Positions 8,379-12,491 of a stretch of 35,536 nt of DNA are shown here, one piece after another. The stretch spans positions 1 to 35,536 of the forward strand of contig JAMOQH010000135.1 in assembly GCA_027064085.1 (NCBI GenBank), given 5' to 3'. The DNA comes from a bacterium. Its GTDB lineage: Bacteria > UBP6 > JAFGXH01. Made by a program: the position numbers and the translations under genes. The notes below the pieces were generated by a model. The model made no database searches. It was not told the origin of the DNA and was given only the letters and a program-made list of their open reading frames with translations. Positions within the stretch are counted from its first letter, which is position 1, and every line of letters begins with the position of its first letter.

Positions 8379-10252
8379 GTTTTTTTGATAACTGTCTGGC
8401 CTGCTTTTAAAGTAATGTCTTTTATAAAAATGATTTTTCCATTTTTTATTATCTTTAAATTGAGCCTTTCATTACCATTAGATAAAGGATTAGGTTTAAT
8501 TTCATAATTATATTCTTTATAACTTCCTTTATAGTTATTATTTATAAAGATATCTCCAGCTTTAGTGTTTATTACTTTTAATTTCGCAGATTTCCATTTA
8601 AGCCTAATTGTTAAAGGTTTTACTTTTTTATTTTTATAAAATAAAGTTTGGGTATGTTTATAGCAACCAATAGAGCTTATTTTTAGTTTATATTTTTGAT
8701 TAGTTTTTAGCTTTATTTTATTTAAACTTCCATAGCCATATAATTTGTCGTTAATATAGATAGTTGCGGCTTTAGGGCTAATTCTAATTGGGATTTCAAT
8801 AGGAATACTTGTTATTTTCTTTTTTTTCTTTATTTTTTTATTATCTCCTTTTTTACTAGGATAAGCTGTCAGCCTATCCTTACTATGGTGGATATCATTA
8901 TATTTATTTATTTGATTTATTATTATTTTTTCAATGTTTTCATTTGGTAATATTATATTCTTAGGATAAGGTGCTTTTTTGACAGGATAAGCCATTGGCT
9001 TATCCTTGCTGTTAGCCTTATCCGGAGAAGCTTGTTTTTTGGTAGGATGTGTCACCTCTGTAGTAGGATGTGTCTCCTCTATAGTAGGATGAGTCACCTC
9101 TGTAGTAGGATGAGTCACCGACTCATCCTTACTAGGGTATTGTATTACTGAGTATATTACAGTTAATATTATTATCGCTATAGCTATAGGTATATATTTT
9201 TTTACTATATTTCCTCTTTCTATTTTTTTTATTATTTCTTTTGCTTTGGTATTTTCTGGTTCGTATTCTAGAGCGAGATATGCATAAGGTATGGATTTTG
9301 AAAATAACTTTTTTTTATATAGTTTTTCTGCATATTGTATATATTTTTCAGGGATATTATTTATAAATCTTTTGTGGTATGCATTTGGAGTTTTGAAATA
9401 TATTTCTAATTCTGTTTTATAGTCAAAATTTAAATTTTTAAAATAAGTTTCTATTTCCTCTATGATAGTATCACTTTCTTTATACCTTGTTAGTTTTGAT
9501 TTTTGAAGGATTTTTTTTATTATTGTTCTTATTTCATTTGAAATCAAAGGATTCAGTTTTTGAGGATTTTCAAATTGACATTTTAATATGTTATTTAGTA
9601 GCTGTGCTGTGTTTTTACCATCAAAAGGATAGGTTTTTGTTAGCATCCAATATAAAATTATTCCCAGTGAAAATATATCACTCTGTTTATCTATTTTTTC
9701 ATCTGTTAAGTGTTCAGGAGACATGAACATTGGAGAACCCATAATCGAGCCTGTTGTTGTAAGATTGTGAACTTCACCAATAATTGAGGCTATTCCAAAA
9801 TCCATAATTTTTATTTTACCATCTCTAGATATCATGATGTTTTCAGGTTTTATGTCTCTGTGGATAATGTTTTTTTGGTGTGTGTAATTTATTCCCTTTA
9901 GTATTTTTAAAAATATTGCAAGTATTAATTCAGGATTGTTTATTGGATTTTTATCTATAAAGTCGGATAGAGTATCTCCATCTATATATTCCATAACAAT
10001 ATAGTTGTTTTCATTTTTATTTACAAAATTATAGACATTAACAATGTTTTCATGGTTTATTCTTGCAATTGCTAGTGCCTCTCGTTTTAATCTTTCTCTG
10101 TTTTTTTCATCACTAGACATTGCAGGATGCAATAATTTAATGGCAACAAGTCTATCAAGATTTTTATCTTTTGCAAGATATACTGTTGACATACCTCCCT
10201 TTCCAATAGGTTTAATTATTTTGTAATTGTCATCATCTAAGTGAAAAGCCAT
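8375..10252 (-). CDS. Membrane-anchored Ser/Thr protein kinase with repeat-rich linker and PEGA-like domains
   Basis: 'IGKGGMSTVYLAKDKNLDRLVAIKLL', 'HRDIKPENIMIS', 'MDFGIAS', 'GSPMFMSPEHL'; TM helix 'YIPIAIAIIILTVIYSVI'; PEGA-like 'PIRISPKAATIYINDKLYGYGSLNKIKL'. Confidence 0.93.
   Translation of the reverse strand: MAFHLDDDNYKIIKPIGKGGMSTVYLAKDKNLDRLVAIKLLHPAMSSDEKNRERLKREALAIARINHENIVNVYNFVNKNENNYIVMEYIDGDTLSDFIDKNPINNPELILAIFLKILKGINYTHQKNIIHRDIKPENIMISRDGKIKIMDFGIASIIGEVHNLTTTGSIMGSPMFMSPEHLTDEKIDKQSDIFSLGIILYWMLTKTYPFDGKNTAQLLNNILKCQFENPQKLNPLISNEIRTIIKKILQKSKLTRYKESDTIIEEIETYFKNLNFDYKTELEIYFKTPNAYHKRFINNIPEKYIQYAEKLYKKKLFSKSIPYAYLALEYEPENTKAKEIIKKIERGNIVKKYIPIAIAIIILTVIYSVIQYPSKDESVTHPTTEVTHPTIEETHPTTEVTHPTKKQASPDKANSKDKPMAYPVKKAPYPKNIILPNENIEKIIINQINKYNDIHHSKDRLTAYPSKKGDNKKIKKKKKITSIPIEIPIRISPKAATIYINDKLYGYGSLNKIKLKTNQKYKLKISSIGCYKHTQTLFYKNKKVKPLTIRLKWKSAKLKVINTKAGDIFINNNYKGSYKEYNYEIKPNPLSNGNERLNLKIIKNGKIIFIKDITLKAGQTVIKKT
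8858..8880. repeat. 23-bp palindromic element, copy A
   Basis: AGGATAAGCT-GTC-AGCCTATCCT; 10-bp arms with one G.T wobble in the transcribed sense. Confidence 0.8.
8984..9006. repeat. 23-bp palindromic element, copy B
   Basis: AGGATAAGCC-ATT-GGCTTATCCT; perfect 10-bp arms. Confidence 0.85.
9042..9104 (-). repeat. 21-bp coding tandem repeat (3 units, VTHPTTE-like) in kinase linker
   Basis: gtaggatgtgtcacctctgta / gtaggatgtgtctcctctata / gtaggatgagtcacctctgta, running into palindrome copy C. Confidence 0.85.
9107..9129. repeat. 23-bp palindromic element, copy C
   Basis: AGGATGAGTC-ACC-GACTCATCCT; perfect 10-bp arms; reverse complement is identical to copy D. Confidence 0.85.
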
Positions 10253-10254
10253 AA

Positions 10255-10902
10255 TTAATTCTGATTATCCTCCTTTTTAGCTTGTTCTTCAAAATATTTT
10301 TGGTCTCTTTCACTGATTAGTTCTCTTATCATGCTATATTTTTTCTTTTTGTTACATCTTAACTCTGAATAATTGATATTTTTTAATTTACAATCACCGC
10401 TTGAAAGTTCTGAGTCCTCGTAAGAATAAAATTTTGTTTTTATTTCTAATTTTTCATCTCTAAAACTACTTTCTTTCACTACATTTCTTGTAAAAATACA
10501 AGTTTTTCTAATATAATCATATTTTGCAGTTATAGGGGCTTCAAATGTCCAGTTTTCATTAGCTCCTTTTGCAAAAAGGTATTCATGTTCTTTGTCACAA
10601 GTGCTAAATCTTCTATCTTCACAATAATATAATAATAAGTCATTAATGCCCTCATCTAAACCTTTTCTTCCTTCAAATATAAAATAAGGCTGAATTTTTT
10701 CATCACTAATATCATCACCATAAAAATCATCAGCTTCGTCACAAGTTTTGGTTGCATATAGTGATTTATATCTGTACAAACCATTTAATACTGTTGTAAC
10801 ATAAGTGTCTTCTTCAACTGAATCACATGAATATACAAATAAACTTAATAAAATTAAGAATATTATCTGTGATTTATTTATGATGTTTTTTAGCTGTTCC
10901 AT
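10255..10902 (-). CDS. Putative lipoprotein of unknown function, immediately upstream of the kinase gene
   Basis: 215 aa; hydrophobic N-terminus ending 'LLSLFVYSC|DS'; stop is 2 nt from the kinase start codon (probable operon); 'aggaggct'-type SD upstream on the minus strand. Confidence 0.65.
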   Translation of the reverse strand: MEQLKNIINKSQIIFLILLSLFVYSCDSVEEDTYVTTVLNGLYRYKSLYATKTCDEADDFYGDDISDEKIQPYFIFEGRKGLDEGINDLLLYYCEDRRFSTCDKEHEYLFAKGANENWTFEAPITAKYDYIRKTCIFTRNVVKESSFRDEKLEIKTKFYSYEDSELSSGDCKLKNINYSELRCNKKKKYSMIRELISERDQKYFEEQAKKEDNQN

Positions 10903-11013
10903 TTTAGCCTCCTAATAATGATATATAGATTAGCTTATTCTACTAAAGTTTTCAAATAAATTTAATAAAAAAATAAATAATATGATTTTTTATTTTATGG
11001 TAACAATCCTTTC

Positions 11014-11042
11014 TTGAATTAAAATAATTCTTTTGTTATAGT
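11014..11042 (+). promoter_or_regulatory. Promoter of TPR/propeller/UDG/NfeD gene cluster
   Basis: TTGAAT (11014-11019), 17-bp spacer, TATAGT (11037-11042). Confidence 0.5.
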
Positions 11043-11081
11043 GTGAATGTTAGTGTTTTTGATTCTTTTGGAGGAATTATT

Positions 11082-12491
11082 TTGAAAAATATTATTTTAA
11101 TATCAGTTTATATACTTTCTTTTAATGTATTTGCTGTTCATCCTGCAGTTGTTACTGGCAATGAATATCTTAAAGTTAAAGACTATGAAAATGCTTATAA
11201 AAGCTATTCTTCTGTTTTAGTTGAAGATGCTAAAGATAAAAGTGCATTGTATGGTAAATCTTACACTTTATTTAAAATGAAAAAATATAAAGAAGCATTA
11301 AATTCTTTTGAGCAACTACTAAAAATAGATAGAAATTTTAGAGATTCTTTATATAGAACAGCCTTTTTATACAGAAAAGTTAAAAATTATGATAAAGCTA
11401 TAGAATACTACAAAGAATACTTAAAGCAAGTGAAAGATGACCCCGATAGTTATTATGGTTTAGCTAGAACGCATGAGCAAAAAAATGATACTGTTGGAGC
11501 AACTTACTATTTTTATCTTTATACAATAAAAGAAACTCGCTCTTCTGAAGATAAATGGGTTAAAAAAGCTCAAAAGAAAATAGAAAAATACAGAGCTAAA
11601 TTTACTCCAGAACAACAAAAACAATATGAATCTCTTATAAACAATAGTAGTAAGGATGAGTCGGTGACTCATCCTACTACAACGGTGACTCCTTCTGCTA
11701 CAACAGTGACTCATCCTACTACAACGGTGACTCCTTCTGTTACAACGGTGACTCCTTCTACTAAGAAAGTTACTCCTAAAGATGCTTTAAATATTCCTAA
11801 ATTAGATAAAAATGCTAAAAAAGTAGAAACATCAACAGATAAAAACTTAAATTATATTTTTATGAAAGGTGTTAAGTCTGATGATTTTTATTTAAATAAA
11901 AAATATAATGATGCTATTATTGAATATAGAAAATACTTAAAAGACCCATTGAAAAGAAGAGAAGGTTTATATAAAATGGCAATTTGTAATGCTTTACTTA
12001 AAAAATATTCAACATCAGTAAAACTTCTTTCTCAAATTATACTTGAAGAAGAGGGAAATAATAAAGTAAGAGAGTTATTAAAATTGTTACTTGTTAATAA
12101 ATCTGTTGTAAGTTCTTTAAAAGATGCTGATTCTTCTATTAAAAATAAAATAGGAATGGGAAAAGTTAATGAATTAATTACAAGAGGAGATTATTATGAG
12201 GCAATTAAAATTCTTGATATATTAAGTGCTAACATTAAAAATAATAGTGGAGCATTATTCTATAAAATCGATTTATTAAGGATTTTATCTAAAAATAAAG
12301 AAATTGAAGAAAATCTAAAGTCTTTTTTATCCATTTATCCTGATAATGTACTTGTTAATGAAAAATATGGAGATTTCTTAGCTTCTCAACATAAAAAAGC
12401 TGAAGCACTTAAATATTATAAAATTGCTATTTCTAAAACTACTGATAAAGAAATAAAATCAAGATTAGAAACTAAAACATCATCTAAATGA
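11082..12491 (+). CDS. Secreted TPR-repeat protein with Thr/Pro-rich tandem-repeat linker
   Basis: TTG start at 11082 after SD 'ggagg' gives signal peptide MKNIILISVYILSFNVFA; TPR-like 'ALYGKSYTLFKMKKYKEALNSFEQLLKID', 'YRKVKNYDKAIEYYKEYLKQV'. The ORF-track start 11043 lies at the predicted TSS. Confidence 0.8.
   Translation: MKNIILISVYILSFNVFAVHPAVVTGNEYLKVKDYENAYKSYSSVLVEDAKDKSALYGKSYTLFKMKKYKEALNSFEQLLKIDRNFRDSLYRTAFLYRKVKNYDKAIEYYKEYLKQVKDDPDSYYGLARTHEQKNDTVGATYYFYLYTIKETRSSEDKWVKKAQKKIEKYRAKFTPEQQKQYESLINNSSKDESVTHPTTTVTPSATTVTHPTTTVTPSVTTVTPSTKKVTPKDALNIPKLDKNAKKVETSTDKNLNYIFMKGVKSDDFYLNKKYNDAIIEYRKYLKDPLKRREGLYKMAICNALLKKYSTSVKLLSQIILEEEGNNKVRELLKLLLVNKSVVSSLKDADSSIKNKIGMGKVNELITRGDYYEAIKILDILSANIKNNSGALFYKIDLLRILSKNKEIEENLKSFLSIYPDNVLVNEKYGDFLASQHKKAEALKYYKIAISKTTDKEIKSRLETKTSSK
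11653..11675. repeat. 23-bp palindromic element, copy D
   Basis: AGGATGAGTC-GGT-GACTCATCCT; perfect 10-bp arms; inside a 34-bp block identical to the coding strand of the kinase gene. Confidence 0.85.
11664..11768 (+). repeat. 21-bp coding tandem repeat (5 units, VTHPTTT/VTPSxTT) in TPR protein linker
   Basis: gtgactcatcctactacaacg / gtgactccttctgctacaaca / gtgactcatcctactacaacg / gtgactccttctgttacaacg / gtgactccttctactaagaaa. Confidence 0.9.

Follow-up and report, generated by a model that had tools for sequence, protein, structure and literature searches.

A family of REP-like palindromes, mainly genic and read in one frame, in a UBP6 bacterium and its probable tie to RAYT transposases

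Repetitive extragenic palindromic sequences (REPs) tagged with GTAG are hairpins of 20-40 bp that form sub-families with alternative complementary stem residues; they are mostly intergenic, but intragenic units are recorded, and some lie inside unrelated open reading frames (ORFs) in likely linkers (Di Nocera et al. 2013, PMC3733652). A closer tie to an enzyme is known for TnpA-REP subclass 2.4, which corresponds to group 4 of the REP-associated tyrosine transposases (RAYTs). In-frame REPs between the HuH and Y motifs of the transposase are unique to this subclass, and its REPs include a "double foot" form with GTAG and CTAC (Quentin et al., PMC6006769). Rickettsia palindromic elements (RPEs) also place palindromic DNA in frame inside unrelated protein genes; their 105-146 bp include a long stem-loop and terminal inverted repeats (reviewed in PMC2229807), and they have no known transposase. 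Those of R. conorii end in CGTC (PMC3733652). PARCELs are dyad-symmetric DNA coding bacterial protein repeats, with tandem variants, in the form of 25-residue amphipathic domains (PMC2996958). Here we describe a family of short palindromes in the genome of a bacterium of the GTDB lineage UBP6; JAFGXH01 (GenBank assembly GCA_027064085.1). Four of its copies lie in two neighbouring genes, for a Ser/Thr protein kinase and a TPR protein, in a stretch of 35,536 nucleotides (contig JAMOQH010000135.1, positions 1 to 35,536 of the forward strand), which we call the window.

This family shares features with each of these systems and is identical to none of them. Its 10-bp stem and 3-base loop fall within the ranges of the GTAG REP superfamily (stem 5-13 bp, loop 2-20 bases) and its copies are many and dispersed, but the usual intergenic predominance is reversed, with one class roughly ten to one genic and in a single frame. 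Against the superfamily's GT[AG]G at the 5' foot, the coding form here mostly has GTAA. As in subclass 2.4, there are in-frame palindromes between the HUH and Tyr motifs of a RAYT and a double-foot GTAG...CTAC form; unlike it, no copies flank the RAYT gene, and the family has reached about 50 host genes in a single frame. The unit is about 30 bp, or about 80 bp without terminal inverted repeats, and so differs from the RPEs, with which it has in common the in-frame position in unrelated protein genes, and it codes for hydrophilic inserts of 8-10 residues, mostly single, where PARCELs code for tandem domains.

Copies, hosts and frame

The genome is a 3.65-Mb draft with 27% GC in the part that we read. 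A strict form of the palindrome pattern matched 34 sites, compared with 3 for a reversed-pattern control, and the generalised pattern RGGAYRAGNC-NNN-GNCTYRTCCY matched 123 compared with 5. A covariance model built from 37 copies found about 100 places when the best 150 candidates were scored. In the 843 kb that we read, which were stretches chosen around matches, there were 88 sites and none in five Markov samples. The arms form standard pairs in 94.6% of pair cells (alignment A1). An earlier note on the window, made from its letters alone, had described the four copies and compared them to RPEs or REP-like units; further copies do exist in the genome, at numbers well above the null, and the likeness now resolves towards a RAYT-linked REP.

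Within the roughly 0.84 Mb fetched around matches, on which all of our genic and non-genic counts rest, we counted 82 copies inside 49 open frames, each 120 codons or longer. Forty-eight of these 49 host ORFs carry the palindrome in the same frame and orientation, with the shared reading AGT AAG GAT AAG NCN NNG NCT TAT CCT ACT, or SKDKxxxYPT, and variants KDExxxHP, RDExxxRP and KDKxxxHP. Because the unit can be read without a stop in three of its six frames (by direct reading), stops alone do not force this single frame. For the RGGAYRAG class we count about 51 genic loci and 5 non-genic ones.

The hosts are unrelated and belong to different Pfam families: IF-2, DnaX, YidC, CheA, ExbD, TilS, kinases and an ABC-F-type ATPase, and also an amidase, a GH3 protein, an M23 peptidase and an alpha-2-macroglobulin. 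The inserts are in linkers or termini, for the most part between domains or outside them. The insert precedes the periplasmic domain in YidC, stands between the Hpt and dimerisation domains in CheA, follows domain III in DnaX, lies in the N-terminal linker of IF-2, separates the two domains of TilS and comes before the C-terminal domain of the ABC-F-type ATPase. In an alignment of ExbD to a solved ExbD, the query runs from residue 90 to residue 130 across 7 residues of the known protein (about 39 against about 7). Many copies stand between domains or a short way behind a hydrophobic N-terminus, and some are near the C-terminus (residue 502 of 544 on contig C47 and 845 of 864 on C164; C, L and G numbers are our handles for contigs, loci and genomes).

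In the two genomes of the same family (G001 and G002) and 25 other members of the phylum, the palindrome pattern stays at background. Matches to the strict pattern in 85k species genomes numbered 11, all of them single and together near chance, and no second family appeared. As far as we have seen, the family is confined to the genus of this genome. The kinase orthologues in G001 and G002 are 45-47% identical to the window kinase with a non-homologous linker, and the TPR orthologue in G001 is 39% identical outside its linkers. These orthologue linkers are low-complexity sequence rich in N, S and T, without the palindrome, which is consistent with insertion into fast-evolving linkers.

The window holds exactly four matches to AGGAT-N13-ATCCT (copies A to D, Table 1), compared with a mean of 0.04 and a maximum of 1 in 100 dinucleotide shuffles. 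The AGGAT and ATCCT ends are exact in all four, while the 3-base loops (ggt, aat, gac) vary freely. Each copy is in frame and has the coding-sense sequence first described for it, and the single G.T wobble noted before is in copy A. Taken with its flanks, the palindrome is an imperfect unit of about 30 bases, AGTA(A)GGAT...ATCCTACT, longer than the 23 bp first described. The copies fold as strong single-strand hairpins (-13 to -16 kcal/mol, z -4.3 to -5.0). In the kinase (Pkinase match 3e-61 at residues 10-258 in a profile search), the order is kinase domain, an apparent transmembrane (TM) helix, a linker with copies C, B and A, and then a C-terminal domain; copy D lies in the middle linker of the TPR protein, which has an apparent signal peptide. 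The TM helix and the signal peptide were judged by eye. The earlier placement of the copies in extracytoplasmic linkers is thus plausible in the window, but it does not carry over to the family, whose hosts include the cytoplasmic IF-2, DnaX, TilS, CheA and ABC-F-type ATPase.

The cassette around copy A belonged to the training set of covariance model R2, so its score in Table 1 is high partly by construction; it reads QINKYNDIHHS-KDRLTAYP-SKKGDNK and is a diverged member of the NKSSD...NGEK class discussed below. Copy B retains part of the left flank of that cassette (SPDKANS), with an R2 match at 8960-9042 (E 0.0015). For the TPR gene, a TTG start at 11082 behind GGAGG is likelier than the GTG at 11043. 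The genome also encodes about 20 Ser/Thr protein kinases akin to the window kinase (about 21 loci), as do both same-family genomes.

Table 1. Palindrome copies, host genes and adjoining repeats in the window.
Feature	Position	Strand	Basis or remark
Host gene 1, Ser/Thr protein kinase, 625 aa	8375..10252	-	ORF
Cassette of ~80 bp (coding) around copy A	8834..8914	-	Covariance model R2, 81 bits, E 2.5e-11
Copy A, AGGATAGGCT gac AGCTTATCCT, KDRLTAYP	8858..8880	-	Frame same as 47 other host ORFs
Copy B, AGGATAAGCC aat GGCTTATCCT, KDKPMAYP	8984..9006	-	Pattern match
21-bp array, 3.7 copies, 91% matches, TTEVTHP repeats	9042..9119	-	Tandem Repeats Finder
Copy C, AGGATGAGTC ggt GACTCATCCT, KDESVTHP	9107..9129	-	Directly after TM helix; covariance model E 5e-8
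Host gene 2, TPR protein, probably exported	11043..12491	+	ORF; TPR family matches
Copy D, AGGATGAGTC ggt GACTCATCCT, 23-mer identical to copy C, KDESVTHP	11653..11675	+	Covariance model E 5e-8
21-bp array, 4.9 copies, starts inside copy D, TTTVTPS / TTTVTHP repeats	11662..11763	+	Tandem Repeats Finder

Base pairing, codon use and tandem repeats

We counted covariation with one copy per host ORF (n=48), against shuffles that contain no model of how the copies are related. Positions 9 and 15 form a Watson-Crick pair in 38 of the 48 copies, compared with 13.3 after shuffling (p<=5e-5). The excess is as significant for pairs 6-18 (42 compared with 23.4) and 5-19 (42 compared with 31.8), and pair 10-14 follows with 43 compared with 37.1 (p 4.5e-4). 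Alignment A1 contains 37 cells with a double change, compared with 11 in shuffled data, and 0 of 500 shuffles reached as many. Pair 9-15 occupies the first positions of two codons, and the encoded peptides covary as T-x-S, A-x-P, S-x-T and P-x-A. Other paired changes turn K-D-K..Y-P into K-D-E..H-P or R-D-E..R-P.

Codon use in the core departs sharply from that of the surrounding gene. Lysine is encoded by AAG in 104 of 106 cases in the core and in 503 of 3533 (14%) in the rest of the same hosts, and glutamate by GAG in 40 of 40 and 238 of 1688 (14%), respectively. Where the palindrome is embedded in a longer unit (the long class, described below), synonymous differences in the core are below expectation and non-synonymous ones are not, with a ratio of about 3.4; this compares with about 1.2 in the left flank of the same class and about 1.4 for the core over all hosts, all of these being rough pairwise counts that use no tree. 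Because the arm pairs covary even where this alters the peptide, and because AAG is kept in the lysine codons, the constraint acts at the level of the nucleic acid. An origin or constraint of this kind, as palindrome or hairpin, had been proposed from the four window copies alone.

Both 21-bp arrays in the window match the right arm of copies C or D together with the bases that follow that arm. Tandem arrays of 33, 42, 63 and 84 bp occur elsewhere in the genome (C105, C111, C192 and C153). These arrays look secondary to the palindromes.

RAYT genes and the foot of the hairpin

A transposase of the Y1 type, which the earlier note had suggested looking for, is present in several versions. A profile search gave Y1_Tnp matches at C32, C182 (24705) and C84, and there are further RAYT-type proteins at C192, C185 and C182:61539; the genes for two of these three contain palindromes of the family. 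The C192 protein matches NF047646 in two separate stretches with E 2.7e-15, short of the curated cut-off. Seven in-frame palindromes lie between its HUH motif MPNHIH and its Tyr motif YYEHIIRN, and six of the seven are GGGATAAGGCGTTGCCTTATCC or near variants of it. The gene at C182:61539 carries one in-frame AGACAAGGCAATGCCTTGTCT palindrome. In RAYTs of other phylum members the corresponding position holds in-frame palindromes of their own, such as GAGACGTTTCATGAAACGTCTC, which also flank those RAYT genes.

A related intergenic form is a double-foot REP (GTAG...CTAC), GTAGAGACAAGGCATTGCCTTGTCTCTAC, which can be written GTAGAGAC[A/G]AGGC-AWT-GCCT[T/C]GTCTCTAC and which is also found at some genic places. 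One of the roughly five non-genic loci is an intergenic array (C189:3796-4254). In the intergenic double-foot class, and in most of this array, the foot is GTAG in full.

Some related loci are worth recording here. The C189 array (L079:3770-4290) consists of five GGGATAAGGCGTTGCCTTATCC units, each with a GTAG or GTGG foot and with other repeats between them, and it ends in a GTACGGGCGAGGCGGTGACTCGCCC unit on the reverse strand before a lipoprotein-like gene. The C185 protein (L216:4055-4744) has a long low-complexity (LDK)n loop after the HUH motif, beginning RRGEVVTRP, which is possibly a decayed REP insert. The C32 Y1 gene has a repeat of its own on both sides, AACAAGGGG..CCCCTTGTT / ..CCCTTTGTT; this gene is near genes resembling type I restriction-modification systems, and the palindrome AACAAGGGG..TTGTT is found just upstream of it and inside its 3' end (L088:1339-1362, 1883-1906). 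RAYT loci with a palindrome after the HUH motif and flanking copies, of the GAGACGTTTCATGAAACGTCTC or GAGACGTGTCAGGTCACGTCTC types, were seen in the phylum at L199 (G003:C50), L201 (G004:C1), L203 (G005:C7), L204 (G006:C47) and L206 (G008:C1). Two contigs of the viral collection IMG/VR, both from one sample (L147 and L148; metagenome 3300020045), contain the exact double-foot REP, GTAGAGACRAGGC-N3-GCCTYGTCTCTAC.

The longer cassette and the competing explanations

About 18 copies of the family are embedded in a longer in-frame unit of about 80 bp, in unrelated proteins, with the consensus GAAGTAAATAAATCTYCTGAT...(hairpin)...ACAAATGGAGARAAA, or EVNKSSD...TNGEK. A strict DNA pattern for this cassette has no match in eight relatives. 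In another 13 cassettes the interior is different or strongly diverged, and 11 of these 13 still contain a hairpin, whose best ungapped stem has 7-12 pairs (p 0.000-0.06 each against shuffles). No second copies of these other hairpins occur in the 843 kb read, except for one that is common to C7:12252 and C177:6461. A short cassette at C178:14244 has no hairpin and could be empty or deleted; it and the solved ExbD, with its roughly 7 residues, come nearest to an empty site. An outer stem TCTCC/GGAGA in the cassette is not supported, as the left side varies in the alignment and GGAGA does not. The cassette is either a landing place for different hairpins or a unit whose core is regenerated as a palindrome, and it is the least explained part of the finding.

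We filed the palindromes as a RAYT-linked, REP-type family because of the palindromes inside RAYT genes, the double-foot form and the published parallels. We believe it probable that they are GTA-tagged hairpins tied to a RAYT/TnpA-REP of the same genome that resembles subclass 2.4, or RAYT group 4. The enzyme would recognise the hairpin in single-stranded form together with the GTA(G) foot at its 5' side, cleave next to the hairpin and join it elsewhere; hairpin-templated recombination may be an alternative route of spread. Insertions that broke a gene or fell out of frame would be lost by selection. The survivors would be in-frame inserts of about 30 bp (or about 80 bp), coding the hydrophilic SKDKxxxYPT in a flexible linker or terminus and presumably neutral for the host. 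The hairpin would stay near-perfect despite drift if each change in one arm drew a compensating change in the opposite arm, either as sub-families diversify with the enzyme under selection for recognition, or by template switching between the arms. The arms may subsequently seed tandem repeats that lengthen the linkers.

Several observations weigh against this assignment. The excess of genic over non-genic loci is the reverse of typical REPs. There are no copies of the family within 2.5 kb outside the C192 RAYT gene, and none flank the Y1 genes at C32, C182:24705 and C84. The search for empty sites in orthologues, suggested in the earlier note, was answered only in part: the linkers of the two same-family genomes lack the palindrome, but the junction is not base-exact, and no exact pair of empty and filled sites was found among orthologue linkers that are too divergent. 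The NKSSD...NGEK flanks match no REP that we know of and hold other hairpins elsewhere. Most copies have the GTA foot, and the fourth base is G in 10 of the 48 host ORFs and A in 33. The E. coli TnpA-REP, which cleaves at CT beside the hairpin, depends on GTAG and tolerates no change in it (PMC8266576). However, other TnpA-REPs tolerate foot changes to differing degrees (PMC8266576), so by analogy a GTAA foot is possibly compatible with RAYT recognition. Because GTAA dominates in genes, with GTAG confined to part of the family, and because no copies flank the RAYT gene, we do not claim formal membership of a subclass 2.4 REPtron.

If selection acted on the linker peptide K-D-K-x-x-x-Y-P, with ordinary duplication spreading the copies and the palindrome as a by-product, the single frame and orientation and the placement in linkers or termini would be expected. 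Codon use and the covariation of the pairs already contradict this reading, as residues 4 and 6 change in pairs set by base pairing, AAG is used where the hosts otherwise use AAA, and the core has a non-synonymous excess both in the long class and over all hosts; we consider it very unlikely. The hairpins could instead act in mRNA, for example by making ribosomes pause between domains or once a membrane segment has been translated, which would keep them palindromic and genic. Strong folding of the window copies, the many copies that follow a hydrophobic N-terminus or sit between domains, and the scarcity of intergenic copies all agree with such a role. But the hosts are not of one functional class, the position relative to domains varies, with some copies near the C-terminus, and the same palindromes occur in the intergenic C189 array and in the RAYT gene, where a translational role is unneeded, so we give this very little credence. 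Slippage of the 21-bp repeat, by which, as the earlier note allowed, the linkers might have grown, could have left the palindromes as chance products within them; this reading draws on the arrays that adjoin copies C and D and on the longer-period arrays elsewhere. As an origin of the family it is refuted and we regard it as extremely improbable: most host genes have a single isolated copy without an array, the shared sequence recurs across unrelated genes and intergenic DNA, and Markov samples yield no sites. Slippage stands as the origin of the flanking arrays.

The cassette suggests two further readings. It could be a self-contained in-frame coding element of about 80 bp, similar to an RPE and independent of any RAYT, that spreads as a unit with the palindrome as its variable core. 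This would fit the roughly 30 cassettes in unrelated proteins, which have both flanks in common and lengths in multiples of three, the hairpins retained by most cassettes of other interior (nearly all of them unique in the sequence read), and the flank ratio of about 1.2, that is, an unconserved peptide. On the other side, about 30 of the 49 host genes have the palindrome without the flanks, flank-less palindromes of the same family occur in the RAYT genes and intergenic arrays, and the flanks have no linked mobility protein. We think that this reading is unlikely. We hold with slightly less doubt, but still only tentatively, that the NKSSD-hairpin-NGEK unit is a distinct element with fixed coding ends and a palindromic core free in sequence, in which hairpins would be swapped or regenerated inside genes; such a core would be selected for structure and either recognised as single-stranded DNA or active in mRNA.

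REPs are named as extragenic, and here a REP-like family is mainly genic, keeps to a single frame and alters linker peptides through paired base changes. Such a family offers a natural test of whether RAYTs move REPs, which is a long-standing question, of how diverging hairpins stay perfect and of how bacterial linkers grow. It is also a warning for annotation, as the probable cause when proteins have a linker peptide like SKDKxxxYPT in common is DNA that spreads, not protein homology.

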